From Panorpa germanica (Eukaryota; Arthropoda; Insecta; Mecoptera; Panorpidae): 64,000 nt of DNA. The notes under the pieces were generated by a model. The model searched no databases. It saw only the letters and a list, made by a program, of their open reading frames with translations, and was not told the DNA's origin. Where the stretch lies: the NCBI GenBank assembly GCA_963678705.1, contig OY783219.1:5518001-5582000 (forward strand), in the 5' to 3' direction. Below are positions 28,050 to 64,000 of this stretch, one piece after another. The number at the start of each line of letters is the position of its first letter. Positions within the stretch are counted from its first letter, which is position 1. The position numbers were made by a program, and so were the translations under genes.

Positions 28050-28522
28050 TGAAGAGAGAAGAAGTACTAAAAGAGGCAGTGAAGGGAAGCAGGAGAAAGA
28101 AAGAAGTAGCGAGGAAACAATTAAACTTCAGTCCAGAAAAATAGAGGATTTGCGGAAAGGAGATAAGGACAAGAGGTAGATGACGGAGATAGAGACAATA
28201 ATAAAATAGTAAAGGTAGAGAGTCAAAAAGAAAGAGTAAAGTAAGAGAGTCAAGAGGAAATAGTAAAGATAGAGCGTCTATGCCTGTAATAGACATAAGT
28301 GGAGAAGTGAAAACGAAGAGAGAAGAAGGCAGGAAGGATAGTGAAAAGGTAATAGAGAGTTTGTCGAGAGGATACAAGGAAGGCAAGAGGTGATAGATGA
28401 ACATACAGGCAACAAGGAAGGAGAAGCAGGAAACGGTGTGAATAAAGGAGGAGTAGGGGACGTGAAGAGAGAGGATCAAGAAAAGAAGAAACAGAAAGTA
28501 CTATTCAAAGTAGTAATTTTTA
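28050..28522 (+). repeat. R12 purine-rich repeat, part left of copia insertion
   Basis: Close match to 19775-20180. The remainder of the same repeat unit ('gaatttatatgaaatgcatt', 'acaattaatataataaat') reappears at 32315-32400 on the other side of the copia element, so copia inserted into this repeat. Confidence 0.7.
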
Positions 28523-28699
28523 TGTTATTTAGAGGATAAATATTAAATAGTATTTTGAGTAAACAAGACCGTTTTGTAAGAGATTCCGAACTGTATATTT
28601 ATTGTATTAGTTAACGTTCTTTTGTTATTACTAAAATAATATCAAGTAAAAACATTACATCTAGTTTTCTAACTCTAGACTTCTAGATACTTAATCTCA
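28523..28699 (-). repeat. Copia 3' LTR
   Basis: 177 bp; minus strand begins TGAGATTAAG and ends AAATAACA. Pairs with 32108-32282. It is preceded on the minus strand by a purine tract, AAAAAAGGGAAAG, the plus-strand primer site. Confidence 0.9.
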
Positions 28700-28792
28700 A
28701 TACTTTCCCTTTTTTCTTGACTCTATATACAGAATTGAACAATTTATAAACTTAAATTACTGGAATATAAAATATATTATACAATATATTTT

Positions 28793-31700
28793 CTAGATTC
28801 TCAAAAGTCCTAACTTATTATTCAAATTCACTAGTCTTGGTTTTGGAAGTGGCTTGGTCATGATGTCAGCTATTTGATCTTCAGTAGTGATATACCTTAC
28901 TTGTATAGCACCTTCCAACACTTTTTCTCCTTTTATTTTTACGTTTTCTAATATAAAGACAAGGATCAGCTTCACTGGCTCTAAACCCCGCTTCTTTTAG
29001 AAAAGTACTAAATCTTTTGTTCCAACATCTAGGAGCTTGCTTTAGCCCATATAAACTCCTTAGTAATTTACAGACATTTTTAGTTCCATCAGTATATCCC
29101 TCTGGCTGTTCCATGTATATATCCCTATCTAAATGTCCGTATAAAAATGCTGTTGAAACATCGAACTGAGTTAAATACATCTGTTCTGTAGCTGCAATAC
29201 TTAGCATAGCTCTTATCGTGCTTAGTTTTGCTACTGGACTAAATGTTTCATTAAAATCCACACCATATCTCTGACTGTAACCTTTTATAACAACTCTGGC
29301 CTTGTACTTATCTATTGAACCATCAGGATTTGATTTTACTCTAAAAACCCATTTAGAAGGTATCACTCTAGATCCTTTTGGCAAACTTGTTAGTTCCCAT
29401 GTATGGTTTTCTTTTAAGGATTTTATTTCATTTTCCATTGCTTCTTTCCAATGATTTTTATTGTTTCCACTGAGAGCTTCTTCATAAGTTTCAGGTGTGG
29501 TGATTTGAAAAACTGTTTCTTCACCAAACATTACGTAGTCTTTTAGATATGCCGGTTTGGACAACTTTGAACGATCTCTCAAATTTCTGGAAAGCTCTGA
29601 GAGTGGATCTTCTCTTTCTTCGTCTGTTGAATCATTCTGTTCATTCTCAGACGATTCTTCAGATTCTGATTCACTGTCTTCTTGTCCTCTATTCTTTTCA
29701 GACACCTCTTGGTTGGTTTGTTTTTCCTCAATTTGAACTTCTATGTCCTTAAATGGCAACTTTACGTACTCACACTTGCTTAACTTTTCTTGAAATAAAA
29801 CATCTCTACTCAGTATAACTTTATTTTCTTCTTTTACCCAGATGCGATAACGCTCATCTCCGTCATAGCCTATCAGGTAACCTTTTATGGTTTTCTTATC
29901 CATTTTCTTCCGTCTCTGATCTGGAATGTGGGCGTAGCACACTGAACCAATTACTCTTAAATGTTTTATTCTTGGTTTCTTACCTATCCATAATTCATAG
30001 GGACTTACACCTTCTACAGACGATTTCCCAGTTCTATTTAGGATGTACAGTGACGTTGCTACAAGCTCTGCCCACATAGCTTTTGGAAAAATTAAATTCT
30101 CATTAGAATATTTAAATGTTCTTGCCATTTCTATGATTGTTCTAAAATCTCTCTCACAAATCGCATTTTGCTGAGGCGTGTATGGAGCTGTCAACCTTTG
30201 TGTGACCCCTGCTGCACTAAGAATCTCTCTGATTTCTTTGTTGTCCATTTCACCACCATTGTCACTAATCAATTCTCTGATCGAATGGCCCAACATCTTT
30301 GTATGCGAAAGTACCTTTCTTAGCATTTCTTTTACCTCTGATTTTTCTGACATCAGGTAACCATATCGAAACTTAGTATAGTTGTCCTTAAAAACAACTA
30401 AGTACTTTTTCTTATTTAATGACTGATCAAAAGGTCCACATACGTCGGCCGAAAATAATTCTCCTGGTTTTGTTGATTTTTCCCTATGACCAAATGGTAG
30501 CCTATGTGCTTTACCATAGATGCAAGGCTCACATAATTGCTTTTCCTCTTTTGGAACTTTCAGATGCAACTCTTTTTGCATTTTAGCTAGTACGTGCCTT
30601 TTATCTTGATGGCCCCACCTCTCGTGGTACAATTGCAATTTATTATCAACAAAATTTACCTCAGGGTTTCTTATTGGTAGTACTGGTGTAATTTTTGCCT
30701 CGAATAAAGTACCTCCTAGTTCTCTTGTTCCATTTAGCATCAACTTTCCCTGATTTGAGAGTCTGCACTTGGTCGCTGTTGACTTAAATACACTCTCTGG
30801 ATTCTTGTCTTGTGCTGCTAAAACAGAGAACAAATTTCTTCTCAAATTTGGTACATACCAGACATCCTTTAACAAAAATTCTTTTCCAGTTTCCAAGATT
30901 CTTATTTTTACAGTTCCTGATCCTATGGCGGGAAGGACTTCTTTTCCTGCAGATCTTATACCAGATGCAGCTTTGAATTCTTTAAAATCTATGTAATACA
31001 AATTACTATTTGTTACATGTCTTGTCGCTCCATTGTCTATCCACCATCTTGAAGAGTGAGTAGACGACTCTGCTGGCATAGCCTCTTCTTCAAGTAACAT
31101 AAGTCCTGTAACAGCTGCTGATGCCTGTTGGTTTTTCTTTGGTCTTCCGTCAGAGATCCACTTTTGGCAATCTTTAACCCAATGCCCAACCTGTTTGCAG
31201 TAGTTACATGTAAATTTATTTTGTTTCGTCTTAACTTTGCTCTTATTATACTTTGTGTTAGCTACAACTAATGCCTCTTCTCTCTCTGGAGAAACTAAAC
31301 TTGTACTTTTTTGTGTCATAAAGTTCCTTTCAAAGGAACAAAGTTGAATCGTCAAATCATCAAATGTCTTATTCGTATCATCTTTTAACAACATCCAACT
31401 TGATTTAAAAGTAATAAATGTACTTGGCAAAATATGCAGCGTCTTGCATAGTAATAATAAGTCTGGTAAAGTATTCTCATTTTTCGCTTTAAGACCATTA
31501 TTTAATTCACTCCATAGTGATTTAAGCTTAGCTATATGTGTTGCTACGTCGTCACCATCAATCCAGTTAAATGAAAAGAAATCCGTACAAATCTTAAATA
31601 ACTGGTCTTTTGACGATGCCTCAAACTGCTGTCTTAACATATTCCAAGCATCAAATGCTGTCTGCTGATCCATGATTTTCTGGTACACTGCATCCGTAAC

Positions 31701-31940
31701 AGAGCTTGCGATCATTGATTTAGCGTAGCTATTTGATTTTCTAAATAAATCACATTTGGACTTGTGCTCTTGCTTTTCAGATTCTGTAGCTCCTTCCTTG
31801 AGTTCTTTTGGTTTTATAAGCTTACCATCTATTACATCTAGAGCACCTTCATGATAATCCAAAAGATCTCTTATCTTGCGCTTCCATATTGGCCAATCTA
31901 ACTCACCGGTTAATGGTTTTATATGTTTATAAAACTCCAT
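28793..31940 (-). pseudogene. Copia gag-pol polyprotein lacking RT core and RNase H
   Basis: One frame of 1,019 codons from 31940. In order: gag (residues about 1-240, with the 'KDQLFKICTDFF' copia signature), CCHC zinc knuckle C245-x2-C-x4-H-x4-C258, protease WWIDNGATRH near 299-308 (DNG in place of the common DSG), GAG-pre-integrase, integrase with D in 'SADVCG', D in 'SDNGGE' and E in 'CERDFRT', then the start of the reverse transcriptase (WVFRVK, 'KARVVIKGYSQ', 'SLYGLKQAPR', 'ADPCLYIR'). Right after that the sequence jumps to the extreme RNase H tail ('EDQIADIMTKPLPKPRLVN') in another frame at about 28880-28793. The YVDD catalytic motif and nearly all RNase H are gone, so the element cannot copy itself. 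Confidence 0.9.
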
Positions 31941-32088
31941 TTTATTTTTAACTATTGTATTCAGCCTGATAATACAATTTAAAATATGAGTTTCCGTTTG
32001 TTTATCAAAATAATTTTAAAATAACACTAATATCACTAACTTTGATATTTGTTAATTCTCTACCTTTACTATTAATACAAATACGTAA

Positions 32089-32102: not shown

Positions 32103-32107
32103 TTTTA

Positions 32108-32282
32108 TGTTATTTAGAGGATAAATATTAAATAGTATTTTGAGTAAACAAGACCGTTTTGTAAGAGATTCCGAACTGTATATTTTGTTTTAGTTAACGT
32201 TCTTTTGTTATTACTAAAATAATATCAAGTAAAAACATTACATCTAGTTTTCTAACTCTAGACTTCTAGATACTTAATCTCA
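32108..32282 (-). repeat. Copia 5' LTR
   Basis: 175 bp partner of 28523-28699. Differs in the patch 'tatattttgttttag' versus 'tatatttattgtattag'; otherwise I see the same sequence. Confidence 0.9.
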
Positions 32283-32639
32283 ATATGAATAGTTTAAGTT
32301 TAGTTTTTAACTTTGAATTTATATGAAATGCATTAAGAAATATAATAATGTAGATTGTAAAGCCGAAAGGCACACAATTAATATAATAAATAAAAAATAA
32401 ACATTTTCTGATTCATACAATAGGTTAAGTTTTGAAAAAAGGAAGTTATATTGCCGCTTCCAGTAATTAATGTTATATGACAGAACCCTAACATTTAACA
32501 AATAATTTAATTTTAAAATAAAACCTTGAATATTGAATGGTAATATTTGACTTGACACCGGTCATGATAGAATTATTAATTACTGTTATTAATTAGAAAC
32601 GTAATAGATGCATTTAATTCGCTGTAAATAGCTGTTCTA

Positions 32640-34883: not shown

Positions 34884-37800
34884 TCAGTTACTTCTTGTTG
34901 CTTTGAAACGACCCATTTCTAGAGTTGATATAGTTCAAATTACGAGAGTTCAACGGCGACTTATACATATAACAAGTTGTGGGGTATAAACTTCCGATAT
35001 AAGTAAAAAGCACAGACTCACTTATTTTTTTATAATGTATATAGAAGCGATTAAGATAAAATTCATTATCGTATTATAGATTTATACCTCTCTTATAACC
35101 TTTTTTAAGTATAAGTCGCCACCGAACTCTCGTGATTTGTACTATATCAACATTTTCTCAATTTTCGTACATGCCTAATATATGTCACTTAACAATTAAA
35201 AACATGTACTTACGGGGAGGTCCGTAATAACAGTCTGCATTCCCATCTGTTGGGCTGGTGGTGGTGGTGGATTGTGTTGGTTTCTGAGTGGTAGAAGGGG
35301 TAGTAGGAGTAGTGGTGGTAGAGCTACCCGTTCCCGATCCCTCCCCTCTTCTAATGAATACTCCATGCTGCCCACTTAGTAAGTTAGTTCTTCTACTATG
35401 ATCAAGTGCTATTATGTCTTCATTTCGTGCTGCAGAACGAAGTCTCAATATCCTATGCGTCTTTCTCTCTGGAAGTAAAATAAAAGCAATAGACAAAGGT
35501 TAATCCATGAATTTATCGATGGATTTAAATTCTAAACATCTTACTAATTCGAATTAGGTTGATCTGTGGCAGTTCATCGTTCATGAGTTGCTTGACACAG
35601 TCAGCATTTAAATTGCAATATAACGTCCCTTTCTTTTCGCATACGCAAACAGCGCATTCGTTCTGTAACAGAAATTGATACATTAAGAGATATTAACAAT
35701 TAAAAAAGTCATTTTGTCTCTTTAATTATTAAAGGGATTCAACGTTGTACATATTCCAAATGCATGTGACATCACAACCACTAGTTGCTATCTCTTTTAT
35801 ACAGCAGAGCGTAAAAGAGATATATTCTTGACAAAACTCTGACAAGTTTACAAGCTACCAACCTTAGAACTTTGCTATATGTATTTATATATCAAAATAT
35901 CAAATATTATTTACAGCTATTTCAAGGAACAATCAAATTTCAATATTATGTCTGCCGTAACAGGGTTAAATAAAATAAAAACTAATTATTCTTTGATTTG
36001 ATTTGATTATTTGACTACCAACAGATACAAAACATTACCACAGACTTGTATGTACGGAAATTTCATAACGCGGGGTACACAGATGTACTTGTTAATTTTA
36101 TAATAATTGAAATTTCTGTTTTGTCAAATTTATAACGGTGCTTATCGCAAAAACTTATGCTGATTTTAAACCTGCGATTTAATTTTTGGTGGCACTTCCG
36201 GTTTTCGAGATATTAGCGTTTCAAAGGTTAAATAATGGAAATATTTTAAAATGGTTTTCAGATTTGGAATCAGCAGAAAAAAGTACGTTCAAAAACATAT
36301 TCAAGAGTTGGAATTAAAATATTTTAATTTTTAATTTTTTTTATAATTTAACTAGGGTGTTAACCTTTAAAATTTGATTAAAAATTGATTGTCTCCGATT
36401 ATAAATTTATAATAGTTCTTAACGTAAAAATGTATGCTGATTTTATTACTATTAAGTTATAAATTGTTTACGTAACAAGTAACTTTTGTTATGTAAGATA
36501 AACTTAAATATACATAAATGCGTTTAGTGGGTTATGTTTAAAATTTATCTTAAAAATGAAGTTATCTTACCGGTTCGAAAGGTACTCCTAATTTGCATTC
36601 TGGGGGCATTTTTACTGAAAAATAATGGAAACTATATTAGAAAAATATATAAGAAAAACATCTGTACTTCTAATTTTAATTCTTTTGGGAATTAATACTA
36701 TTTAAGAATAACTTTGATTATTATCATTAAAATAATTCTGCATTACTGTTTAGGAATCATCCATTAAGGGAAAAAGGTGCACAAAATATAAGAAGAAGAC
36801 GAGGGGTGTCATAAACTTCGTGTTGACACATCTACCACTCTGGGTCACTTAAAACTATGCCGATACTATTGATTTTGCGTGGTAAGTGAAATACTGACAC
36901 CTAACCTAAAAATTTAAAAAACAGGTAATTATTTATTTTACAAAGTAAATATTTGGAACATTCTAAACTTCTGCGCGCGGAAGATATACTTTAAGATAAG
37001 CTTTTGATATTGCAAGAGAAAAGAAAATCGACCTATATTTTTATAAAGAAATATAACTTTTCTTGTGGTCTGGGGAATGAACAGTAAAAGAGAAATGAGG
37101 CAAGAGGAAAAATTAGAACACGTTAAGTATACGTGTCTCGATAAAAATTAAAGTGAATTAAGGTTGGAGGAGTGATTGCAAGGAAAGAGGAAAGGAGGAG
37201 TATGCATGACGGAGGAAAGAATAAAGCGAAGAGAGAAGGAGGAGAAATTTTGTAAGCAGAGGAAGTCGTGCGGAACGATTGCAATAGAAGAGAAGAAAGC
37301 TTAGAGGAGTGATTGCAAGGAAAGAGGGAAGGAGGAGTATGCATGACGGAGGAAAGAATAAAGCGAAGAGAGAAGGAGGAGAAATGTTGTAAGCAGAGGA
37401 AATCGTGCGGAATGATTGCAATAGAAGAGAAGAAACTTAGAGGAGTGATTGCAAGGAAAGAGGAAAGGAGGAGTATGCATGACGGAGGAAAGAATAAAGC
37501 GAAGAGATAAGGAGGAGAAATTTTGTAAGCAGAGGAAATCGTGCGGAATGATTGCAATAGAAGAGAAGAAAGCTTAGAGGAGTGATTGCAAGGAAAGAGG
37601 GAAGGAGGAGTATGCATGACGGAGGAAAAAATAAAGTGAAGAGAGAAGGAGGAGAAATTTTGTAAGCAGAGGAAGTCGTGCGGAACGATTGCAATAGAAG
37701 AGAAGAAAGTAGATAGGTGGTGGAAGTAAGGAGGAGGTAGAGGAGGAAGATAAGATCAAAAGGCAGACGAACATTCTATACTTACATTCATAAAGAAACA

Positions 37801-45825: not shown

Positions 45826-46440
45826 TTTTACAAATTTTACATATACTCTTCTACTGTAAATATAAATTAAAATGAAATGATTGTTTATTTAATCAATAAT
45901 GTGGTACCTATGATTCATACATTTCAAAATGTATTTATTTAAACTCTAATTTGTTTTATTTTGTGTATGTGTCCTATGGTCTTTCATTGAGACAATTAAT
46001 ATTAAATTGTATACATTCAAATATGCAATAATTAATAAATATCTTTAATTAAATTTTCATAATTATTTTAAAACTTTTTAACATAGTGTAGATTTCTTTA
46101 ATTAATGATGTGAATCATTGCTAAATTTTATATTTTTTTTGTTGGCTAACAGTTTTATATTGTAAGAACTTGCTTGGTTGTAGCTGTCAATAATTTTAAA
46201 CTAATACAAATTAATTATTTTGTTATTATTAAATATATGTAGTATTTATAAATCTTTACGTATTTACAATAATAATACTTCGTGAAAGTACACTTTATCT
46301 TTAGAAGTATTTCAGTATATACACTAAATGTCTAACCTAAAAAATTAGTGTCATTGCTTTAGGTAAGTTACTGTGATTTGTGTTGTATATAACTGTTTAG
46401 CAGTAGTCTAATTCTAATTTATATCAATAGAATAATAAAT
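45826..46440. promoter_or_regulatory. Putative bidirectional promoter between LRR gene and Hakai
   Basis: The 615 bp between the two divergent start codons contain no repeat I recognise and no TATA box at an obvious position, typical of housekeeping promoters. That it drives both genes is inferred from orientation only. Confidence 0.4.
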
Positions 46441-47688
46441 ATGGGAGCAGATGATACGACAGTAGGTAAAAGAGGCCGTGGAGCCGGCAGAGGAGGTCGT
46501 CGTGGTAGAGGTCGTGGTCGAGGACGTGGTCGCGGAAGAGGTCGTAAAGCAGCGAAAATCTTATCATCTGATGAAGACTCAGCCAACGAAGCACCACCAG
46601 AAGTAAAACCAACCCCAGAAGTAGACCCAAAAGTAAAGCTAGAAGAAAAAAAAGATAATGATGAAAACCTACCACCAAAAATAGATCTTGAAGCTGACAT
46701 TTCTCAATTAGAAGCTCCTACATTCACAACATTACAAAGAGGGCCTCCAGAACCCATGCTAAGACTTCAATGGGATCACAAAGTGAATTTGATGGGTGAG
46801 AAAGTTTTAAATCCCATGATACATAGCTGCGATCAATGTAACAAACCTATTTTAATTTACGGGCGTATGATTCCTTGCAAACATGTTTTTTGTCTTCGTT
46901 GTGCAAAGGCAGAACCTAAAGTTTGTCCTAGGTGCAACGACAAAGCTTGCAGAGTAGAACAAACTGGTCTGGGCACTGTTTTTATGTGTACTCATGGAGG
47001 TACAAGGTACGGGAATGCAGGATGTCGTAGAACATATTTATCTCAACGAGATCTTCAAGCCCATATTAATCACAGGCACGTGAACTCAACTACCGCGAAT
47101 CAAGATGCTGGAAATATAATTTCTGCTAAACAAGCTCCATTAACTGACCTTAAAGGGCCTACGACACCTAGAAAGGCACCGCTGGAACCACGAACGCACC
47201 CTCAAAATGCAGCACAGAATATGGTAAATCACGAAGCGCAAAGAAATCCACCTGCGCGTACTGGATACCCAATAATGACGAATCCAAATGCAATGAGAAC
47301 CAATTTAATAACTGTTCCAATTCAAGACAACAATCCAGTTAATATTGTCGCACATACCGAGGTGCCTCCAGCGAACTATGTAGTGCCCCCGCACTTTAAT
47401 CCAGCTGCTGTAACAGCTTATAATAATACTTATCCACAAAATGTTACTAATATTCCACCTATTGGACAAACTATTGCTACTTTGAACCCTATTGGAGCTA
47501 TTGGGCCTATGCATACAATGACTGTACCACCACCACATTTGGGGACTCAGCCGGCTTACTATGGACCTTATACACAGTATACGCCGCAACCAGCACCCCA
47601 ATATCCACAGGCTCAACAAAGAACTTACGAACAAACGTATCCTCCGCCTCCTACAGGACCCAACTGGCAACAACAATACTACAGATAA
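46441..47688 (+). CDS. Hakai: E3 ubiquitin ligase Hakai (CBLL1 family)
   Basis: Single-exon gene of 415 residues. Hakai is a RING-type ubiquitin ligase first known for E-cadherin turnover and now also known as a stable part of the m6A mRNA methyltransferase (writer) complex. The RING finger spans residues 130-165: C130-x2-C133, C146-x-H148-x2-C151-x2-C154, C162-x2-C165, including the family phrase [12 protein letters not shown]. It is followed by the Hakai-specific zinc-binding motif (C183, C195, H208, H213; phrase '[18 protein letters not shown]'), which binds phosphotyrosine targets as a dimer. The C-terminal half is Pro/Tyr/Gln-rich and disordered. Residues 11-35 are an unusual Arg-Gly run ([10 protein letters not shown]), then acidic sequence. 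The start is the first ATG in frame with a good A/T-rich leader. Confidence 0.93.
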
Positions 47689-48980: not shown

Positions 48981-51900
48981 ATGAGCGCTTCCGAAAATAA
49001 AATGCTATCCTTAATGGCTCAAAAACTAGGATTTGAAGATGATTTACAATTAGTTGAGTAAGTAATTAAAACATAACCTTAAAAGCAATTAAATTGAAAG
49101 AATATACTAATTGTTATAAATATAAAATCTAGAAAAGCACACGAATTCTCACGCCTCCTGCAGATGAAATCTCTCGGTAATAGCTCTGTTGTTTTAAACG
49201 ATTATGCTAAATGTGTCATATGTCTCGATCTTGCAAGCACTAATTTGGGAATTACTTTTGATGCAGTAAGAACAATATATTTATTAATGAAAATATTTAA
49301 TTTCTTGTATCTAATGTACATTTTTTATAATAGGAGACTGCTTTAAAATTATCAGGACTTAAAAAAAGTCAATATCTAAATAATTTACGTACTATAGAGA
49401 AACTTTTAGATTTAACACGTCCTCTGACAGTAAATGAAATCTGCGTACAACTAGGAGTAACTGGGGTAATTATATTTATATATTACATTACTTTATTTCA
49501 GAGTTGTTATTAATAATCTGTTATTTTGAAGGTTACAAACAAAGCAGTAGCTATATTTGACATTTTTATAAAAACTCATAACACTTCTGATACGTCGCAT
49601 CCTCAGTATGTTTCAATGGCCGTTTTCCAAGCTTGCAGGTATTTAAAGAGAATTCACTATTAAATAGTATATATATTAAATTTGTAATACCTTACCTTGT
49701 ATGCTTTTAGATTAGATAGTATAAAAGTAACCAGGAGCAAAGTTATTGCATTTAGCCGGCTGAAGCCTTCGCAGTGGTCAGTTTTAGAAGCAGATTGGAC
49801 TAAATGGGTAGATACCATTGCACCAACTCTTTCAAAAAGTATTAATAAGGCTAACAATTCAAATATTGCTCTCAAATCTGGTAAGTTCTAAATATTTTTT
49901 AATCTATCCTTTTCTTCTTCTCAAGTATCTCAAGCAGTTACCATTCGTTCAGAACGTTAATTTCATAAAACGAAATATTGAGACACCTAAAACTATCTCA
50001 CCCAATCTGATTTTTTAAATTCTGTGTAATATAGTTTTTATTTCAAATTCTGATTTTTTTAAAATCAAGTATAAATGTTTAATGAAAATTAAAACAGTGG
50101 CTGGAAATTGAGTAAACAAATAGGGTAATTAAAACGTATATTCTCTAAACACAAAACATCAATTGATTTATTATTTTACGTAATTTTTAACTGAAATTTA
50201 ACATAAATTACAATAAGATACATTGTCATTAAAGAAATGCAAAAGGCAAATCTTTTACAATTATTAATTTAATCAGAAACCTTGTCAGACAATGTATATT
50301 TATGTCGATACTTTTGTTATATAACTGTTCTGTAACAGGTAATCCTTTTTATGTTAAATAAGTATTAATTTATATGCATTAATAATTCGCAAGAAATTCA
50401 TATAATTTTTGAAAATTCTTTATTAGAGTCAAAATGATAATAATTTCAATTTAAACGTATACATCTTATAAAATATAAAGCAGCATTTTTTTTGTTTTGT
50501 TACATTAATAATAAACATTAAATATTTTTGGAATATTTAAAAACTAAAGTTATTAAACTTATTACAAAATTTAGTTTCAAAAATTCTTAATTTTACATAA
50601 TTAAAAATATTAACATTACAATAAAAATAGAAATGACAAAAACAATTTCTGTAACTATTCTAAAACACAAATATCACAAGCTAAAAGGGGGGGGGTACTT
50701 TTTGTTTTCTTCTTCGAATACTTGAAACTATATTTAAATAATTTTTTTGTTTCTTTGAACCGATGGCTTTTTCGGAGGGGCCCAACGCAGTGCCCCTGGA
50801 TCTACAGTAAGCCTTGGTTTCTTAAATACAGGGGAATTTAAATGATCGTTTACGAGTTTTCCTGTCACGCAAATAACGTGCTGTCCTTTCCAATACTTAA
50901 CCATGTTCATGCTTTGCAGAGTTGATATAATATCTGTTTGAGTAATGCAGGTCATTTCGCTAAGATCTTTAATTGCCATCGTCCCTCTGCAGACCCTTAA
51001 AATCTCCAGGATGACGTAAGACCAGTAGCTCCTGTAGCTCAACTTTCCAAGATCTGATAACGGTTTTTCAGGACTGCCCTGGCAACCTTCAATTCGTGAT
51101 AGTTCATAACTAAAAGCTATTAAAAGTTTTCCGTAACCTTGTCTTTGGTATGGAGGTAGTGTTAAAATGCAAGCCACGTTGTTACCTTCTGGAGATTCTT
51201 TTTCTTTAGAAAAGTAGCCAACTATATGTGCCCCAAACTTATCAACTTCACAAAGCACGTAAAATAAAAATGGTTCAACGTCAAAGTATAAAGTTTTGTG
51301 GTCCAGAAAGAGCTTTGCAAGTAGACATAGATTTTGACAATACATTTTGTACTCACGGCCGTCCACTTCGTATATGGAGATGGTACCTTTGCGGTATATT
51401 TCTTTGCCTACAGGTTGTCGGTGAATACACTCCCCCAGATGAAACCTGTAAGACTTTTCATGGCGCATATATTTTAAACAATATTCACAGATCCATAACT
51501 TTGATTGTTTACCATATTCGTCGGGGAAAGGACTGAAATACCATGTGTCAATTTCATATTTTCCAAACTGTATTTTATCAATATATTTAACTTTTGTTAT
51601 GGCTTCATGTTCGCGTTCTAAAGCAGCTGTTGTAGGATCCATATCGGCGTAAGACTTTGGAATGTGATTAATTTCGTCATGTCTACGTTTTTGATTACGT
51701 GTTATTTTACGATCAGTATTATCCGCAGACAATAAATCTGTCGTTGAACTTTTTTCACGTTTCCAATTCTGATCTAACATATCAAATCTTGATAACATAA
51801 TTCTTTCCCGCCCAACCCATTCGTCGAGTCTTCTATTGTGGCCTTCATAATGAATATAATATTCATACCTGTTCGTCCCTTCATTAAAACGGGAATGTAT

Positions 51901-52513
51901 TATTTCACCAGGTTGCCATGAATCATATGTTCTTTGTACTAAATAATGTTCGCCTATATCTAATGCAGATTCTTCAGGTTCTGCATCTGGCTCCGGTAAT
52001 TCTGTTGAAGCATAACCATTCTTTTTTTCTGTATCATTATTTACAGTCTCTGCTTTTGTGTCTTTACATTCCTCTGTCACCATTTTAATTAATTAATATT
52101 ATATATATTTCGTTACACGTTATTATAAAAATTACACAGCTAGAAATAACGAAAGACGCAATAAACACTTCCTTACATATTCTTTTTGTTAGTATTCCGC
52201 CATTTTTTTTGTTCTACCAATATCAAAATAATAAATTGTACAGTTATCTGCTCGCATGTGGTTTAGTAAAGAAACAATCCATTGTGTTTTTGAGTTATTG
52301 ATTTATAGAGGTCGCTAGAAGTTTCAAGAATATTTAAATATGAATTAGTTATATTAAATAATTACTTTTCAAGAAGACTACATTTCGAATTTTGCAGCCG
52401 ATACTTTAAAAAAGCAAAGGAGCACTGAAGATGACCATGAAAGAATATCCGAAGACTATGAGACTTGGAAGAATAGAATTTTGGAAGCTGCCTACAAGGA
52501 TATCCAGTGCTGA
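48981..52513 (+). CDS. Orc6: Origin recognition complex subunit 6
   Basis: Six exons: 48981-49057, 49133-49265, 49334-49465, 49532-49638, 49711-49880 and 52398-52513; all GT-AG with matching phases, 244 residues (human ORC6 has 252). Orc6 is the smallest ORC subunit and is needed to load MCM helicases at replication origins; it has two TFIIB-like cyclin folds that bind DNA. Recognisable phrases include [10 protein letters not shown], '[16 protein letters not shown]', 'SMAVFQACR' and '[17 protein letters not shown]'. The last exon supplies the C-terminal helix '[14 protein letters not shown]', which binds Orc3 in the family; Tyr227 aligns with human Tyr232, mutated in Meier-Gorlin syndrome. 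The final intron is 2.5 kb and contains the complete mof gene on the other strand. The last exon lies inside the 5.2-kb tandem unit and so recurs downstream. Confidence 0.92.
50734..52083 (-). CDS. mof: MYST-family histone acetyltransferase MOF (KAT8)
   Basis: Intronless, 449 residues (human KAT8 has 458). MOF acetylates histone H4 Lys16 in the MSL dosage-compensation and NSL complexes in the nucleus. Features: acidic N-terminus; chromo-barrel domain about residues 45-100 ('[16 protein letters not shown]'); MYST C2HC zinc finger C199, C202, H215, C219; catalytic core with Lys293 in VGYFSKEK (the autoacetylated Lys of the family), Cys305 in [13 protein letters not shown], acetyl-CoA loop Q313-R-Q-G-Y-G-K319 and Glu332. 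All expected catalytic residues are present, so it should be active. It lies wholly inside the last intron of Orc6 in antisense orientation. The lack of introns suggests a possible retrocopy origin. Its first 55 codons are repeated in the downstream tandem units. Confidence 0.95.
52398..52513 (+). CDS. Orc6: Last exon of Orc6, beyond the nested mof gene
   Basis: Acceptor TTTTGCAG, phase 1, matching donor TCTG|GTAAG at 49880. Encodes [20 protein letters not shown] followed by the Tyr-containing Orc3-binding helix and a TGA at 52511-52513. Opposite-strand small frames here are shadows. Confidence 0.88.
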
Positions 52514-53872
52514 TTACTGATTTTTCTAAATAGATATTTAACAATTGTATTATTCTAGGAATCGTTAAGTTTTCCCTTTTGTACTAAGCAAGGGCTGTTT
52601 TTGTACTGTAATTGATTTAAGGTCGCCTGTCTGAGGAAGTTGCTCTTACGCAGTTCGCACGTCTTATTTCTAAGCATTTCTAAGATAAAATAATAAACAC
52701 AATTTGAATAATAGACACACATATTTTATTTAATAATATTTATACCTTACAGACTAGACTGTACTCAAGAATTTCAATTTTTAATTGAAATTAAAATAAT
52801 AATTAATAAAATAATATTTAAAACAAAAAAATAATATATTTATATACATATTAATAATATATGTAATTAATAATAACATTAATAATTAATTTTAAGATAA
52901 TTTTGATATTAAGCTTACAATAAATTTATTGTATTGCAATTCAAAACATAAGTTAAATAAAATAAAACAATCATACGTTAAGGTATTATTTAAAAATAAT
53001 TAGATCTTTCAAAAATACACAAAATTCTGATTACTAAATTTAAATGTAAGAAAACAAACATGTTTTTTGCCAAACCCAATACCATATCTTTTGTAAGTGG
53101 TTTTTGAAATAGATCTTTTTATTTATCAAGCTCACAAATTATATACAGCTAGTTTATTATTTAGGCTTCTTTAAGTTAATTAAATTTAATTAGTTAATAT
53201 CGACATCATAAAAATGAATTACATTTTAAAATAAAATGAAGTGTATATGTGTATATATATTCGAAATAGAATTTTTAATGTTTTAAAATATTTTAAAATT
53301 CAATTTAAAATTAAAAAACATATGTTTATTTTTTAATGAAAATTTAATTTATTTGCACCTTAACTTTAATGACTTGATTATAAAATCAAGTAATAGTTAC
53401 AAATTGATATTTTTTTAAAAATATAATTAATAATATTTAGATAAATATGTAATATTTTTTCTTTGCAATTATTGTTTGATGTTGTTGTGTTTTTTGGGTG
53501 ATGTTGTATGAGGTTTTCAGTTATCCTTATCTGCAATTAAAAAGGCATTTATTAAAATAACATCCTGGACAACAGCCACGCATTATGATTGGGTAATTTT
53601 TCATAATTTTTAATGAAGAATTATTTATTTTAACTTTACATCAATATTGTCACAAACAAATTTTGAAATAACGTTTTCTATCGGTTCTAGCTATTATTAA
53701 ATTAATTCGCTAGTGATAATTATAGACAAAAGTACATATATACTATACTCAATACATATACTTGTTAAATACTACCACATTGTTGAGAAATATGGAAATA
53801 TTACCAATTTTTCTTTTACTAATTTGCAGTCCTAAATTGATTCATGTAGATTACAATTTACTCACTATATAT
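52514..53872. other. Convergent 3' region between Orc6 and troponin T
   Basis: Very AT-rich, no coding signal. Likely made of the Orc6 3' UTR on the plus strand and the troponin T 3' UTR on the minus strand. Confidence 0.6.
52692..52697 (+). promoter_or_regulatory. Poly(A) signal candidate for Orc6
   Basis: AATAAA 179 bases after the Orc6 stop codon. Confidence 0.6.
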
Positions 53873-53915
53873 TTATTCTTCTTCCTCTTCCTCCTCTTCT
53901 TCTTCCTCTTCTTCT

Positions 53916-53950
<35 letters not shown>

Positions 53951-56900
53951 AGGCTCGGGCTCGAAAGTGGGTTCTTCCAATTCTTCGTCAAGGTCGATAT
54001 CATCAGCCTTAACATCCTCCTCACCTTCGGGTGATTCTGGGTCTCCAGCTTTCTTGCCTGGACGTTCTCCGAACCATTTGGGCAACTTGGCTACACAATC
54101 GAAAACCAACGATTAAAAAATACAATCTTCAAAATATGAATTGTTTCAAAAAGAGGTTATTTACAAAACTTATACATTGTTTAAAAAAAAAACACATTTA
54201 CTCAAAAGAATTCAGGGTTTTAAAATAGTGTGTTTTGTATTTTGTAAAACTAATTTACGATTCGATGATGGAAATATTTTTTAGTTTGTCATTTAAAAAT
54301 GCTGTACAATGGGCTTGTGTCCTTATTTTTTAGTGGTCGATTTTTGAATTGTTGATTGAAATTGATGTTAATAAATGTGTATTGGCGTGTCTATTTTATT
54401 AAATATCTAAATGTTGACGGAGATATAGCAATTAAAAATTTGAATTTTAGTTTTAGCGCTAGAGTCAGTTATTTGTTGAGTAGGTCAGTGCTGTGGTAAT
54501 GTTTTGGAGCTGTTGGTAGTCAAAATAATCAAGTCAAGTCAAAGAATAATAAGTTTTCATTTTATTTAACGCTTTTACGGCAGGCATAATATTGAAATTT
54601 TATTGTTCCTTGAAATAGCTGTAAATAGTATTTGATATATAAATACATATAGCAGAGATTTATGATCTGTAAGGTTGGCAGCGGTTGTGATGTCACGTGC
54701 ATTTGGAATGTGTACAACATTGAATCCCTTTAATAATTAAAGAGACAAAATGACTTTTTTAATTGTTAATATCTCCTTACTATCTCCTAATATCAATATA
54801 TAGTACACTTTTATAGAAGTTAAGACATAGGACACGAGCCCATTTATTAGCTGTGTACAAAACTTACCTTTCTGGCGACCGCCGAATTGTTGGCTTCTGT
54901 CGGTCCAGATACGCTCAAGACTTTCCTTATTTTGTGTTTCTAGTCCCTATGGATGAATTGTTATTGGAATGTAAATCAAAAATGCAGGATAAATCAACAA
55001 CTAAATGCAACATATAACAATCCACTGTAAAATGAAAAAATCATTGCTTGTTGAACTTGGAAGTTGTGAAATAGATGTCTTATTAGACATTGTGATAAAT
55101 TGTAGACAATTAGGCGTATATGTAGCCTTGCGTTTTTGTTCAATAAATATTTCATTGATATAAGTTTGTATTAGACAACTTCCAAGCACGCTGCGTTCAA
55201 GAAATTTGATTTTACAGTGCTATAAAAGAGGGTATGGGGTCGCAGACTGCACTATCTTTGTACAGGTTAGCCGATTCGGCGACTGCTAAGATTTGAATTA
55301 AGTAGATATATGTTTTAGAAGAGAAATCCATTGGTCCAGCAGCAGATTGCTAGTTGCTTTTGTGACATAAATAGCAGAGAGAAACCTTATATAATCTTCT
55401 TCCTTAAGTTCGTTGATACAGTAAGAGAAAGGAGTCGGAAAAGGAGATGATTCGAAAGAAGGAATTGATTGGAAAACAAGAAAAGGTGTAAAGGAACTAT
55501 AATTCGAAGGGCGGATTGTAATGCTGGAAGGAGAGAAACAACGAAAGAAAGAAGAGTTTGTTTTGGTTTAGGGAGAATGTTGAAGTGAAAATATCCAGTA
55601 AACATTTTGGAGTCACTTTGCCATCATATTGAAGACGCGTCTGATTTTTTTGTAATGAAAGAGTTCAGTTTCTAAGGTCGTTAGGCTACAAATGGCGAAA
55701 CTACTCGATCTACCGGAATACAAATGAAGATAAAGTTGATGCGAACTATAATTGAAGTGCAATAGTGATAGAAACGTCTCAAAACAAGACACGTCACCAA
55801 ATTGTTTACTGGGTAGCAAAACTGCAACAGTAAATTAAATGAGCCAATCAACAAGTTGACCAATGGATTTTTCCTGCAATAAATGGGTGAGATTAACAAC
55901 AAATTAGGGTATTTCTCGACGAAATGTTCAATTTGATATTTCTGTGATATTAATAAACACTGAGAGAATAAATAATAACGGAAAACGATATAATTATTAA
56001 CAACATCATAAGGAATCAAGTAACATGTAAAGAAAAAGACAAAGGGGGTTGTTTTTTTTAATAGTACGATAAAGTAATGTAGACGAACACATTGAAAATC
56101 GACATGGGGGCTAACACATTTACGAAGAAAACAACGTGCTTAGCAACACGTGCCGAAATCCCACGTGGACTTGACTTACATCGTTTACGTTTCATGAATT
56201 GGTCATTTCGTTTCTTCCACGTGTGCTCCATGGTTTCCGACAATAATGTGTCGTAACCCTGAACAAAAGTTCACTCTCTTAAAAATATTCTTAGCATTTG
56301 TTTGATTATAAAGGTATTAATCAACGGACGGTAATTCCCGAAATTTTCTCATCGAACTAAAGTATGCTATATGGGATTGAGCTAATTATTTGGAAGGAAA
56401 TTCTACTTACACCCTCGAAGAGCTTCTTCTTGTCGTCGTAAGACCTTGTGTCCACACGACGTTCATATTTGGAGGCGACTTGGATCTTGGGCTGCAAAGA
56501 ACACCAACAATTAACGACTGAACCACCACGATCATCATCTAATTATAGATTAAGGAACTTACGGGGTATTTGCCAGTAAGGGCTTCTGGGTCTAAACCCT
56601 TCTTTAAGGCTTTGTGTCTGAGTTGTTGTTTCTGCCTTTCTTTCAATTCTTTAAGATCGTAATCTTGACGTTTTTGACGTTCCTCAAGATCGTATTTCTC
56701 GGTCTCCAATTTGACAATTGTTTCCCAGAGTTCAGTAGCCTTATTGCGAAGTTTGTCAATATTCAAATTTTCAACATCTAGTGGTTTAATACGGAAAGAC
56801 AGAGAAATTTTCTTTTCTTCTTCCAATTGTTCCTTGGTCTTGTTTCTTTCAATTTGGGCGGAGGAGAGGTTGAACTAGAAATGGTAAATTACAGATTATC

Positions 56901-57082
56901 TCACTGGAATTTGAGCAGGTTTAGCTGGTGATAAAGGGTGATAATTACGTTGTTGTCCTTCTTGGTAATGGTGAAATTGGGGCCGGTTTTGTTGCTGTCC
57001 TTCATGGCTTGAAGCATAGCTTGACGCTTCTTCTCAGCCTCTTCAAGACGACGACGCTTCTCTTCAATATCACGTTGTTTCT
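53873..57082 (-). CDS. up: Troponin T 3' exons, tandem copy 1 (5' end missing)
   Basis: Troponin T anchors the troponin complex to tropomyosin in striated muscle. Exons in transcript order: 56949-57082 (truncated by the tandem junction), 56563-56874, 56411-56491, then either 56180-56258 or 54868-54946, then 53873-54090. Diagnostic phrases: 'EKKRQAMLQAMKDSNKTGPN', 'RNKTKEQLEEEKKISLS', 'LETEKYDLEERQKRQDYDLK', 'HKALKKGLDPEALTGKYP', 'PKIQVASKYERRVDTRSYDD' and KLPKWFGERPGKK. The protein ends in 25 consecutive Glu, an insect-specific trait of this protein. In this copy nothing upstream of the junction continues the gene, so by itself it is an orphan 3' fragment of about 274 codons without a promoter. 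Intron between the two alternative exons carries MITE R5; the intron before the last exon carries R3. Confidence 0.92.
54308..54845. mobile_element. MITE family R3, full-length copy in troponin T intron
   Basis: 538 bp with terminal inverted repeats AATGGGCTTGTGTCC and GGACACGAGCCCATT (14 of 15). The interior has 'tgacggagatatagcaatta' and the palindrome-like 'ctttaataattaaag'. It is the reference copy for at least eight fragments elsewhere in the window and recurs at 59474-60011 through the tandem duplication. Confidence 0.85.
54868..54946 (-). CDS. up: Troponin T alternative exon B (79 nt)
   Basis: Encodes GLETQNKESLERIWTDRSQQ and FGGRQK, phase 0 to phase 1. It has the same length and phases as the exon at 56180-56258 but a different sequence, as expected for a mutually exclusive exon pair. 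Joining to 54090 completes an Ala codon (G|CC). Confidence 0.88.
55595..55812. mobile_element. MITE family R5 in troponin T intron
   Basis: Termini CCAGTAAACATTTTGG and CAAATTGTTTACTGG, 218 bp. It sits between the two mutually exclusive exons. Confidence 0.8.
56180..56258 (-). CDS. up: Troponin T alternative exon A (79 nt)
   Basis: Encodes GYDTLLSETMEHTWKKRNDQ and FMKRKR, phase 0 to phase 1, donor GTAAGT. Joining to the last exon completes a Ser codon (T|CC). It corresponds to the alternative exon 10 pair known for insect troponin T. Confidence 0.88.
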
Positions 57083-57249
57083 CATGAATCATATGTTCTT
57101 TGTACTAAATAATGTTCGCCTATATCTAATGCAGATTCTTCAGGTTCTGCATCTGGCTCCGGTAATTCTGTTGAAGCATAACCATTCTTTTTTTCTGTAT
57201 CATTATTTACAGTCTCTGCTTTTGTGTCTTTACATTCCTCTGTCACCAT
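57083..57249 (-). pseudogene. mof: mof 5' fragment in tandem copy 2
   Basis: Encodes mof residues 1-55 (to RTYDS) and then, across the junction, an immediate TGA. It keeps the start codon and upstream region, so it could be transcribed into a truncated message lacking the catalytic domain. Confidence 0.9.
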
Positions 57250-57563
57250 TTTAATTAATTAATATTATATATATTTCGTTACACGTTATTATAAAAATTA
57301 CACAGCTAGAAATAACGAAAGACGCAATAAACACTTCCTTACATATTCTTTTTGTTAGTATTCCGCCATTTTTTTTGTTCTACCAATATCAAAATAATAA
57401 ATTGTACAGTTATCTGCTCGCATGTGGTTTAGTAAAGAAACAATCCATTGTGTTTTTGAGTTATTGATTTATAGAGGTCGCTAGAAGTTTCAAGAATATT
57501 TAAATATGAATTAGTTATATTAAATAATTACTTTTCAAGAAGACTACATTTCGAATTTTGCAG

Positions 57564-57679
57564 CCGATACTTTAAAAAAGCAAAGGAGCACTGAAGATGA
57601 CCATGAAAGAATATCCGAAGACTATGAGACTTGGAAGAATAGAATTTTGGAAGCTGCCTACAAGGATATCCAGTGCTGA
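57564..57679 (+). pseudogene. Orc6: Orphan Orc6 last exon in tandem copy 2
   Basis: Copy of 52398-52513 with its acceptor intact and no Orc6 exons directly upstream within the unit. Splicing to it from the real Orc6 would need read-through past copy 1. Confidence 0.88.
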
Positions 57680-59038
57680 TTACTGATTTTTCTAAATAGA
57701 TATTTAACAATTGTATTATTCTAGGAATCGTTAAGTTTTCCCTTTTGTACTAAGCAAGGGCTGTTTTTGTACTGTAATTGATTTAAGGTCGCCTGTCTGA
57801 GGAAGTTGCTCTTACGCAGTTCGCACGTCTTATTTCTAAGCATTTCTAAGATAAAATAATAAACACAATTTGAATAATAGACACACATATTTTATTTAAT
57901 AATATTTATACCTTACAGACTAGACTGTACTCAAGAATTTCAATTTTTAATTGAAATTAAAATAATAATTAATAAAATAATATTTAAAACAAAAAAATAA
58001 TATATTTATATACATATTAATAATATATGTAATTAATAATAACATTAATAATTAATTTTAAGATAATTTTGATATTAAGCTTACAATAAATTTATTGTAT
58101 TGCAATTCAAAACATAAGTTAAATAAAATAAAACAATCATACGTTAAGGTATTATTTAAAAATAATTAGATCTTTCAAAAATACACAAAATTCTGATTAC
58201 TAAATTTAAATGTAAGAAAACAAACATGTTTTTTGCCAAACCCAATACCATATCTTTTGTAAGTGGTTTTTGAAATAGATCTTTTTATTTATCAAGCTCA
58301 CAAATTATATACAGCTAGTTTATTATTTAGGCTTCTTTAAGTTAATTAAATTTAATTAGTTAATATCGACATCATAAAAATGAATTACATTTTAAAATAA
58401 AATGAAGTGTATATGTGTATATATATTCGAAATAGAATTTTTAATGTTTTAAAATATTTTAAAATTCAATTTAAAATTAAAAAACATATGTTTATTTTTT
58501 AATGAAAATTTAATTTATTTGCACCTTAACTTTAATGACTTGATTATAAAATCAAGTAATAGTTACAAATTGATATTTTTTTAAAAATATAATTAATAAT
58601 ATTTAGATAAATATGTAATATTTTTTCTTTGCAATTATTGTTTGATGTTGTTGTGTTTTTTGGGTGATGTTGTATGAGGTTTTCAGTTATCCTTATCTGC
58701 AATTAAAAAGGCATTTATTAAAATAACATCCTGGACAACAGCCACGCATTATGATTGGGTAATTTTTCATAATTTTTAATGAAGAATTATTTATTTTAAC
58801 TTTACATCAATATTGTCACAAACAAATTTTGAAATAACGTTTTCTATCGGTTCTAGCTATTATTAAATTAATTCGCTAGTGATAATTATAGACAAAAGTA
58901 CATATATACTATACTCAATACATATACTTGTTAAATACTACCACATTGTTGAGAAATATGGAAATATTACCAATTTTTCTTTTACTAATTTGCAGTCCTA
59001 AATTGATTCATGTAGATTACAATTTACTCACTATATAT

Positions 59039-59081
59039 TTATTCTTCTTCCTCTTCCTCCTCTTCTTCTTCCTCTTCTTCT

Positions 59082-59116
<35 letters not shown>

Positions 59117-62100
59117 AGGCTCGGGCTCGAAAGTGGGTTCTTCCAATTCTTCGTCAAGGTCGATATCATCAGCCTTAACATCCTCCTCACCTTCGGGTGA
59201 TTCTGGGTCTCCAGCTTTCTTGCCTGGACGTTCTCCGAACCATTTGGGCAACTTGGCTACACAATCGAAAACCAACGATTAAAAAATACAATCTTCAAAA
59301 TATGAATTGTTTCAAAAAGAGGTTATTTACAAAACTTATACATTGTTTAAAAAAAAAACACATTTACTCAAAAGAATTCAGGGTTTTAAAATAGTGTGTT
59401 TTGTATTTTGTAAAACTAATTTACGATTCGATGATGGAAATATTTTTTAGTTTGTCATTTAAAAATGCTGTACAATGGGCTTGTGTCCTTATTTTTTAGT
59501 GGTCGATTTTTGAATTGTTGATTGAAATTGATGTTAATAAATGTGTATTGGCGTGTCTATTTTATTAAATATCTAAATGTTGACGGAGATATAGCAATTA
59601 AAAATTTGAATTTTAGTTTTAGCGCTAGAGTCAGTTATTTGTTGAGTAGGTCAGTGCTGTGGTAATGTTTTGGAGCTGTTGGTAGTCAAAATAATCAAGT
59701 CAAGTCAAAGAATAATAAGTTTTCATTTTATTTAACGCTTTTACGGCAGGCATAATATTGAAATTTTATTGTTCCTTGAAATAGCTGTAAATAGTATTTG
59801 ATATATAAATACATATAGCAGAGATTTATGATCTGTAAGGTTGGCAGCGGTTGTGATGTCACGTGCATTTGGAATGTGTACAACATTGAATCCCTTTAAT
59901 AATTAAAGAGACAAAATGACTTTTTTAATTGTTAATATCTCCTTACTATCTCCTAATATCAATATATAGTACACTTTTATAGAAGTTAAGACATAGGACA
60001 CGAGCCCATTTATTAGCTGTGTACAAAACTTACCTTTCTGGCGACCGCCGAATTGTTGGCTTCTGTCGGTCCAGATACGCTCAAGACTTTCCTTATTTTG
60101 TGTTTCTAGTCCCTATGGATGAATTGTTATTGGAATGTAAATCAAAAATGCAGGATAAATCAACAACTAAATGCAACATATAACAATCCACTGTAAAATG
60201 AAAAAATCATTGCTTGTTGAACTTGGAAGTTGTGAAATAGATGTCTTATTAGACATTGTGATAAATTGTAGACAATTAGGCGTATATGTAGCCTTGCGTT
60301 TTTGTTCAATAAATATTTCATTGATATAAGTTTGTATTAGACAACTTCCAAGCACGCTGCGTTCAAGAAATTTGATTTTACAGTGCTATAAAAGAGGGTA
60401 TGGGGTCGCAGACTGCACTATCTTTGTACAGGTTAGCCGATTCGGCGACTGCTAAGATTTGAATTAAGTAGATATATGTTTTAGAAGAGAAATCCATTGG
60501 TCCAGCAGCAGATTGCTAGTTGCTTTTGTGACATAAATAGCAGAGAGAAACCTTATATAATCTTCTTCCTTAAGTTCGTTGATACAGTAAGAGAAAGGAG
60601 TCGGAAAAGGAGATGATTCGAAAGAAGGAATTGATTGGAAAACAAGAAAAGGTGTAAAGGAACTATAATTCGAAGGGCGGATTGTAATGCTGGAAGGAGA
60701 GAAACAACGAAAGAAAGAAGAGTTTGTTTTGGTTTAGGGAGAATGTTGAAGTGAAAATATCCAGTAAACATTTTGGAGTCACTTTGCCATCATATTGAAG
60801 ACGCGTCTGATTTTTTTGTAATGAAAGAGTTCAGTTTCTAAGGTCGTTAGGCTACAAATGGCGAAACTACTCGATCTACCGGAATACAAATGAAGATAAA
60901 GTTGATGCGAACTATAATTGAAGTGCAATAGTGATAGAAACGTCTCAAAACAAGACACGTCACCAAATTGTTTACTGGGTAGCAAAACTGCAACAGTAAA
61001 TTAAATGAGCCAATCAACAAGTTGACCAATGGATTTTTCCTGCAATAAATGGGTGAGATTAACAACAAATTAGGGTATTTCTCGACGAAATGTTCAATTT
61101 GATATTTCTGTGATATTAATAAACACTGAGAGAATAAATAATAACGGAAAACGATATAATTATTAACAACATCATAAGGAATCAAGTAACATGTAAAGAA
61201 AAAGACAAAGGGGGTTGTTTTTTTTAATAGTACGATAAAGTAATGTAGACGAACACATTGAAAATCGACATGGGGGCTAACACATTTACGAAGAAAACAA
61301 CGTGCTTAGCAACACGTGCCGAAATCCCACGTGGACTTGACTTACATCGTTTACGTTTCATGAATTGGTCATTTCGTTTCTTCCACGTGTGCTCCATGGT
61401 TTCCGACAATAATGTGTCGTAACCCTGAACAAAAGTTCACTCTCTTAAAAATATTCTTAGCATTTGTTTGATTATAAAGGTATTAATCAACGGACGGTAA
61501 TTCCCGAAATTTTCTCATCGAACTAAAGTATGCTATATGGGATTGAGCTAATTATTTGGAAGGAAATTCTACTTACACCCTCGAAGAGCTTCTTCTTGTC
61601 GTCGTAAGACCTTGTGTCCACACGACGTTCATATTTGGAGGCGACTTGGATCTTGGGCTGCAAAGAACACCAACAATTAACGACTGAACCACCACGATCA
61701 TCATCTAATTATAGATTAAGGAACTTACGGGGTATTTGCCAGTAAGGGCTTCTGGGTCTAAACCCTTCTTTAAGGCTTTGTGTCTGAGTTGTTGTTTCTG
61801 CCTTTCTTTCAATTCTTTAAGATCGTAATCTTGACGTTTTTGACGTTCCTCAAGATCGTATTTCTCGGTCTCCAATTTGACAATTGTTTCCCAGAGTTCA
61901 GTAGCCTTATTGCGAAGTTTGTCAATATTCAAATTTTCAACATCTAGTGGTTTAATACGGAAAGACAGAGAAATTTTCTTTTCTTCTTCCAATTGTTCCT
62001 TGGTCTTGTTTCTTTCAATTTGGGCGGAGGAGAGGTTGAACTAGAAATGGTAAATTACAGATTATCTCACTGGAATTTGAGCAGGTTTAGCTGGTGATAA

Positions 62101-62248
62101 AGGGTGATAATTACGTTGTTGTCCTTCTTGGTAATGGTGAAATTGGGGCCGGTTTTGTTGCTGTCCTTCATGGCTTGAAGCATAGCTTGACGCTTCTTCT
62201 CAGCCTCTTCAAGACGACGACGCTTCTCTTCAATATCACGTTGTTTCT
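59039..62248 (-). CDS. up: Troponin T 3' exons, tandem copy 2 (5' end missing)
   Basis: Exons 62115-62248, 61729-62040, 61577-61657, alternative 61346-61424 and 60034-60112, and 59039-59256, each 5,166 bases right of copy 1. Also cut at the junction (62249), so it is not joined to the troponin T 5' exons either. The copy contiguous with the true gene should be the last one of the array, right of the window: its terminal exon would start near 64,205. Confidence 0.9.
59474..60011. mobile_element. MITE R3 in tandem copy 2
   Basis: Duplicate of 54308-54845 carried along by the tandem duplication, not an independent insertion. Confidence 0.85.
60761..60978. mobile_element. MITE R5 in tandem copy 2
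   Basis: Duplicate of 55595-55812 carried along by the tandem duplication. Confidence 0.8.
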
Positions 62249-62415
62249 CATGAATCATATGTTCTTTGTACTAAATAATGTTCGCCTATATCTAATGCAG
62301 ATTCTTCAGGTTCTGCATCTGGCTCCGGTAATTCTGTTGAAGCATAACCATTCTTTTTTTCTGTATCATTATTTACAGTCTCTGCTTTTGTGTCTTTACA
62401 TTCCTCTGTCACCAT
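62249..62415 (-). pseudogene. mof: mof 5' fragment in tandem copy 3
   Basis: Same 55-codon fragment followed by TGA at the junction as in copy 2. Confidence 0.9.
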
Positions 62416-62729
62416 TTTAATTAATTAATATTATATATATTTCGTTACACGTTATTATAAAAATTACACAGCTAGAAATAACGAAAGACGCAATAAACAC
62501 TTCCTTACATATTCTTTTTGTTAGTATTCCGCCATTTTTTTTGTTCTACCAATATCAAAATAATAAATTGTACAGTTATCTGCTCGCATGTGGTTTAGTA
62601 AAGAAACAATCCATTGTGTTTTTGAGTTATTGATTTATAGAGGTCGCTAGAAGTTTCAAGAATATTTAAATATGAATTAGTTATATTAAATAATTACTTT
62701 TCAAGAAGACTACATTTCGAATTTTGCAG

Positions 62730-62845
62730 CCGATACTTTAAAAAAGCAAAGGAGCACTGAAGATGACCATGAAAGAATATCCGAAGACTATGAGACTTGG
62801 AAGAATAGAATTTTGGAAGCTGCCTACAAGGATATCCAGTGCTGA
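62730..62845 (+). pseudogene. Orc6: Orphan Orc6 last exon in tandem copy 3
   Basis: Third occurrence of the Orc6 terminal exon, offset 10,332 from the functional one. Confidence 0.88.
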
Positions 62846-64000
62846 TTACTGATTTTTCTAAATAGATATTTAACAATTGTATTATTCTAGGAATCGTTAA
62901 GTTTTCCCTTTTGTACTAAGCAAGGGCTGTTTTTGTACTGTAATTGATTTAAGGTCGCCTGTCTGAGGAAGTTGCTCTTACGCAGTTCGCACGTCTTATT
63001 TCTAAGCATTTCTAAGATAAAATAATAAACACAATTTGAATAATAGACACACATATTTTATTTAATAATATTTATACCTTACAGACTAGACTGTACTCAA
63101 GAATTTCAATTTTTAATTGAAATTAAAATAATAATTAATAAAATAATATTTAAAACAAAAAAATAATATATTTATATACATATTAATAATATATGTAATT
63201 AATAATAACATTAATAATTAATTTTAAGATAATTTTGATATTAAGCTTACAATAAATTTATTGTATTGCAATTCAAAACATAAGTTAAATAAAATAAAAC
63301 AATCATACGTTAAGGTATTATTTAAAAATAATTAGATCTTTCAAAAATACACAAAATTCTGATTACTAAATTTAAATGTAAGAAAACAAACATGTTTTTT
63401 GCCAAACCCAATACCATATCTTTTGTAAGTGGTTTTTGAAATAGATCTTTTTATTTATCAAGCTCACAAATTATATACAGCTAGTTTATTATTTAGGCTT
63501 CTTTAAGTTAATTAAATTTAATTAGTTAATATCGACATCATAAAAATGAATTACATTTTAAAATAAAATGAAGTGTATATGTGTATATATATTCGAAATA
63601 GAATTTTTAATGTTTTAAAATATTTTAAAATTCAATTTAAAATTAAAAAACATATGTTTATTTTTTAATGAAAATTTAATTTATTTGCACCTTAACTTTA
63701 ATGACTTGATTATAAAATCAAGTAATAGTTACAAATTGATATTTTTTTAAAAATATAATTAATAATATTTAGATAAATATGTAATATTTTTTCTTTGCAA
63801 TTATTGTTTGATGTTGTTGTGTTTTTTGGGTGATGTTGTATGAGGTTTTCAGTTATCCTTATCTGCAATTAAAAAGGCATTTATTAAAATAACATCCTGG
63901 ACAACAGCCACGCATTATGATTGGGTAATTTTTCATAATTTTTAATGAAGAATTATTTATTTTAACTTTACATCAATATTGTCACAAACAAATTTTGAAA

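Follow-up and report, generated by a model that had tools for sequence, protein, structure and literature searches.

In the assembly analysed here, a 5,166-bp unit stands in exactly three head-to-tail copies, and the two joints between them bring the beginning of the acetyltransferase gene mof in front of the end of the troponin T gene (TnT). Judged from the sequence, this arrangement is probably a real and very recent chimera-forming tandem duplication in an insect-like genome, a description that we take from the gene set and from the Glu-rich tail of TnT. Such an event, if real, would be a very young duplication of this class, with its parts still identical, and would let the fate of a new chimera be watched before mutations blur the record; if it is instead an artefact, it would make a clean test case for assembly checking.

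Array structure and copy identity

The window, which is the whole 64,000-nucleotide stretch under study, covers positions 5,518,001-5,582,000 of a 14.5 Mb contig in an assembly of 464 Mb and 249 contigs, and 80 kb of DNA past its end were taken in for the analysis of the array end. Shifted by 5,166 bp, the window matches itself without a break, with 51917-58834 equal to 57083-64000 (6,918 bp, 0 differences), and at an offset of 10,332 bp it is identical over 1,752 bp. When the DNA past the window end is included, the three copies measure 5,166 bp each with 0 differences among them, and the assembled array runs over 15,498 bp, from 51917 to 67414 in window numbering. The 5,166 bp after 67414 are unrelated to the unit (3,584 mismatches).

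51917-57082, unstranded: array copy 1 (5,166-bp unit), 0 differences to copies 2 and 3
57083-62248, unstranded: array copy 2, 0 differences to copy 1
62249-64000, unstranded: in-window part of array copy 3, which extends outside the window to 67414

These comparisons bear out the original prediction of a 5,166-bp unit joined head to tail at 57083 and 62249, with the same letters at both junctions, and of two full copies plus 1,752 bp of a third inside the window; the third copy is completed outside it. Identity had been claimed for the stretches compared at that time, homopolymers and a GAA/GAG tract included, and it now extends over the full unit in all three copies. Tracts that usually drift fast are no exception, as a 10-base A run at 54183 and a TTC/TCC (GAA/GAG) tract at 53876-53950 are the same in each copy. 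Within the window the array repeats are by far the longest exact repeats, followed by an inverted one of 127 bp and a direct one of 96 bp.

The complete lack of differences, even in the A run and the Glu-codon tract, counts against a real array, since a path repeated by the assembler would give the same result. In that case a chimeric read, or a circular extrachromosomal DNA of 5,166 bp, would have formed a loop that the assembler walked several times, and three perfectly identical copies with identical junctions are what a walked loop would be expected to leave. The same loop would neither add copies of the flanks nor break the outer genes, and the single-copy flanks, the 14.5 Mb contig and the preserved outer genes fit a real array and a walked loop alike. 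If the array is real, its age is limited by the absence of differences to about 19,000 to 104,000 generations (95% upper limit, for two or three branches and an assumed 2.8e-9 to 1e-8 mutations per site and generation). An older array held identical by gene conversion seems to us highly improbable: tandem copies can indeed be homogenised, as is well established, but there are only three copies here, no differences appear even beside the array edges, where homogenisation would be expected to be least complete, and nothing in the data requires such a process.

Counts across the assembly agree with the structure seen in the window. A 25-mer spanning the junction is matched exactly at 2 places in the 464 Mb assembly, namely at the two array junctions, and its reversed-pattern control at 0. 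A 2,158-bp probe from the unit gave 17 matches, of which three are full-length at 100% and all lie in the array, the other 14 being short (72-82%). Counting probes were chosen without the dispersed repeat carried by the unit, as the whole-unit search gave, among the matches listed, dispersed-repeat places and not the array; the assembly-wide search skips very common words, so that repeat counts are lower bounds. The flank probe from mof matches at full length in one place and over 266 bases at 70% in another, the latter probably being another MYST gene, and the flank probe from TnT has one match. With one full-length place per flank probe, the assembly shows no second form of the locus in a single-copy state.

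This last result bears on a further possibility, which overlaps with a real duplication: the array could exist with a wrong copy number in the assembly (two copies, or more than three) or on one chromosome only. Counting is difficult when reads are too short to cover the 15.5 kb of identical copies, and we regard an error of this kind as possible, if doubtful. The absence of a single-copy version speaks against a heterozygous array, although assemblies often omit the second haplotype.

We also scanned the 174 kb around the locus for near-identical repeats (31-mer seeds no more than 80 bp apart, offset of at least 300 bp, length of at least 400 bp, words seen more than 30 times excluded), and the array alone was found. 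More diverged repeats do occur nearby, for example one of 649 bp at 87%. These 174 kb are a small sample of the 464 Mb assembly and yield no rate of such repeats.

Breakpoints and origin of the joint

Both breakpoints fall within coding exons. The left edge of the array, in mof, reads ...CAGGTTGC/CATGAATCATATG, the right edge, in TnT, reads ...CACGTTGTTTCT/TTTCTTCAATTTC, and the inner junction reads ...CACGTTGTTTCT/CATGAATCATATG. Comparison of the three gives 0 bp of microhomology between the partners and 0 bp inserted.

57082/57083, unstranded: junction 1, TnT exon joined bluntly to mof exon
62248/62249, unstranded: junction 2, identical to junction 1 (shared junction 25-mer)
54308-54847, unstranded (unit 2392-2931): dispersed repeat in a TnT intron, with long matches of 81-90% identity elsewhere in the assembly among the 64 matches listed (39 of 5,198 candidates scored)
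55595-55816, unstranded (unit 3679-3900): second dispersed-repeat stretch in the same TnT intron, with matches of 80-95% elsewhere in the window

The signature of non-allelic homologous recombination, a homologous repeat at both breakpoints, was looked for and is absent, with 0 bp common to the joint partners. Neither dispersed-repeat stretch sits at a breakpoint. Because the joint is blunt and the dispersed repeats lie away from the breakpoints, recombination between repeats is argued against as the first event, and an origin by unequal recombination between transposon copies is rejected, the joint being without homology and the dispersed repeats internal to the unit.

The blunt joint also bears on the possibility of an artefact. 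Since no base overlaps at the joint, an assembler could not have created it from sequence overlap alone; it must exist in some physical molecule, which could be the chromosome, a circular DNA or a read of chimeric origin. Together with the absence of gap letters (0 N in the 174 kb around the array), the blunt junction favours a real and recent event, and we consider an assembly artefact unlikely.

For a real duplication, we propose that the TnT and mof exons would have been linked, each at a single point and with no need of homology, either through two DNA ends or through slippage of a replication fork. The number of copies could then have risen to three by one more event, an unequal exchange or renewed copying, as the two identical junctions suggest. 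Because the outer copies keep a complete mof at the left and an uninterrupted TnT exon at the right, the event would be expected to be near neutral for both genes.

The genes at the array and the mof/TnT chimeras

Three genes contribute to the unit: mof, TnT and a gene that we propose to be Orc6. The first part of the unit is formed by the 5′ part of mof and the region upstream of it.

50734-52083, minus strand: mof (MYST acetyltransferase, KAT8 family), with an intact coding sequence of 449 aa from its ATG and no introns (open frame, Pfam, PDB)
57083-57249, minus strand: mof stub at junction 1, with the ATG at 57249, 55 codons and a TGA spanning the junction, repeated at 62249-62415 by the exact repeat

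The mof product has Pfam matches to MOZ_SAS (1.5e-86), zf-MYST and Tudor-knot, and its best match to a solved structure is KAT8 (PDB, 4e-202). Its frame is whole at the left array edge, as had been expected, and the stub anticipated in the inner copies is there, with its 55 codons followed by TGA.

49881-52397, plus strand: last intron of the proposed Orc6 (donor ATCTG/GTAAGT, acceptor GCAG/CCGATACT)
52398-52513, plus strand: proposed last exon of Orc6, within the unit (splice sites, codon phase TCT G/CC GAT, open frame)

Against ORC6_2nd, the exon at 49688-49891 gives a weak match (E 1.1e-4, 23.0 bits, under the Pfam cut-off of 27), and that at 49334-49513 reaches only E 0.043. The proposed last exon at 52398-52513 has no Pfam match, and we assume from its resemblance that it encodes the ORC6 C-terminus. 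If this exon assignment is right, the whole mof coding sequence appears to be nested in the last Orc6 intron, on the opposite strand. The leftmost array copy retains the proposed last exon in place, and the extra copies of it, which would be among the orphan exons of the original prediction, are found at 57564-57679 and 62730-62845. Upstream of Orc6 lies a Hakai zinc finger gene in a single frame (46393-47688, plus strand; Pfam zf_Hakai, 2.9e-18).

TnT enters the unit with its 3′ part.

53873-57082, minus strand: 3′ part of TnT in copy 1 (Pfam, PDB, splice sites)
57082-56949 (cut), 56874-56563 and 56491-56411, minus strand: TnT exons in copy 1
56258-56180 and 54946-54868, minus strand: alternative TnT exons in copy 1, 79 bp each
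54090-53873, minus strand: last TnT exon, with the Glu-rich tail and the stop

The Pfam Troponin match (39.4 bits, cut-off 26.2) falls only on the frame 56539-56874, which corresponds to the exon 56874-56563; five TnT exon frames were compared with Pfam, and the other four are without a troponin match. When joined, the pieces show similarity to troponin T chains of solved structure (PDB, best 5e-15). Three donor positions for one exon, each combined with either alternative exon, make 6 spliced models, of which two are in frame. Both use the donor after 56411, and this donor was chosen because it keeps the reading frame with either alternative exon. At the other end of the array, the TnT exon runs on uninterrupted across the right edge at 67414 (...RVREIEEKKQRDIEEKRRR...), and a scan with insect TnT motifs gave three matches beyond the array, at about 67720, 70381 and 70736, which look like 5′ exons of TnT. 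The suggestion that TnT can stay intact at the right edge stands as regards this exon.

The mof stub and the 3′ exons of TnT both read along the minus strand. Since the two genes share a strand, each inner junction makes a mof-5′/TnT-3′ chimera, in which the first 55 codons of mof and the region upstream of them precede the 3′ exons of TnT. The inner copies had been described as adding orphan exons and a mof stub; these exist, but the chimera at each junction had been missed. An in-frame mof-TnT fusion protein is excluded, since the mof frame hits a TGA at the joint. Another ATG, at 57092 in the mof DNA just upstream of this stop, opens the TnT frame in a different phase, and with the TnT splice sites it would give a predicted product of 277 aa with either alternative exon. 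Initiation there is unlikely because the mof ATG has an A at -3 and a G at +4 and is separated from the ATG at 57092 by five further ATGs. Early stops upstream of several introns lead to mRNA decay, and a chimeric transcript with such a stop would probably be degraded. It is a very improbable idea that the mof promoter drives expression of both chimeras, giving a TnT of 277 aa with a shortened N-terminus outside normal tissue control; this would be a new chimeric gene at birth, with the extra TnT 3′ exons open to read-through splicing.

Known duplications and other features of the region

Chimera-forming tandem duplications are documented in Drosophila, according to the accessible portions of two reports (PMC5460883, PMC4503668), one of which counts 76 chimeric genes from tandem duplications in 15 lines of Drosophila yakuba, 24 of them with raised expression (PMC5460883). 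As described in those portions, the Drosophila duplications ignore gene borders and combine a 5′ gene part with a 3′ part from another gene while the parents are kept (PMC5460883, PMC4503668), and the same is seen here: the copies stand head to tail with one common breakpoint junction, two genes are joined 5′ to 3′ on the same strand, and both parents are retained (mof frame whole, TnT exon uninterrupted). By its structure in the assembly, the array is a member of this class. It differs from the Drosophila cases in having three copies, and thus two identical chimeras, in that the reading frame of the chimera is not kept across the joint, and in being known from one assembly. The duplication is ordinary in kind and neat in detail. 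Among the papers listed by a literature search, none is on this mof/Orc6/TnT duplication as judged by title and start of abstract, which does not imply that it is unpublished.

The marks of false duplications in assemblies include, in the available part of one account, gaps between copies, reduced depth, discordant reads and erroneous k-mers (PMC9516828). Like the false duplications described there, the array consists of adjacent copies that add partial genes; unlike them, it has no gap letters, no allelic differences and a precise blunt joint (PMC9516828). The assembly gap that may separate false copies is absent from the same 174 kb, and the heterotype form, in which copies differ as alleles do, is absent from the three copies. 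Annotators should be cautious at this locus, where gene predictors may call two extra partial models each of TnT, mof and Orc6.

For non-coding RNA, the window gave 0 Rfam matches at the gathering score and 0 tRNAs by ARAGORN (bacterial code). A search with the TCAGG telomere pattern gave 0 matches, and the reversed control gave 2. An open frame of 1,044 aa at 28881-32015 (minus strand) resembles by eye a copia-type retrotransposon polyprotein, and it is flanked by stretches at 28518-28702 and 32103-32285 that are 98% identical and could be terminal repeats. Tandem Repeats Finder reports a 137-bp unit in four copies at 37160-37709 (95% matches). Outside the window, at 85586-88348 in window numbering, lies a repeat cluster with offsets near 146 bp and multiples of it, whose copies are about 94-100% alike.
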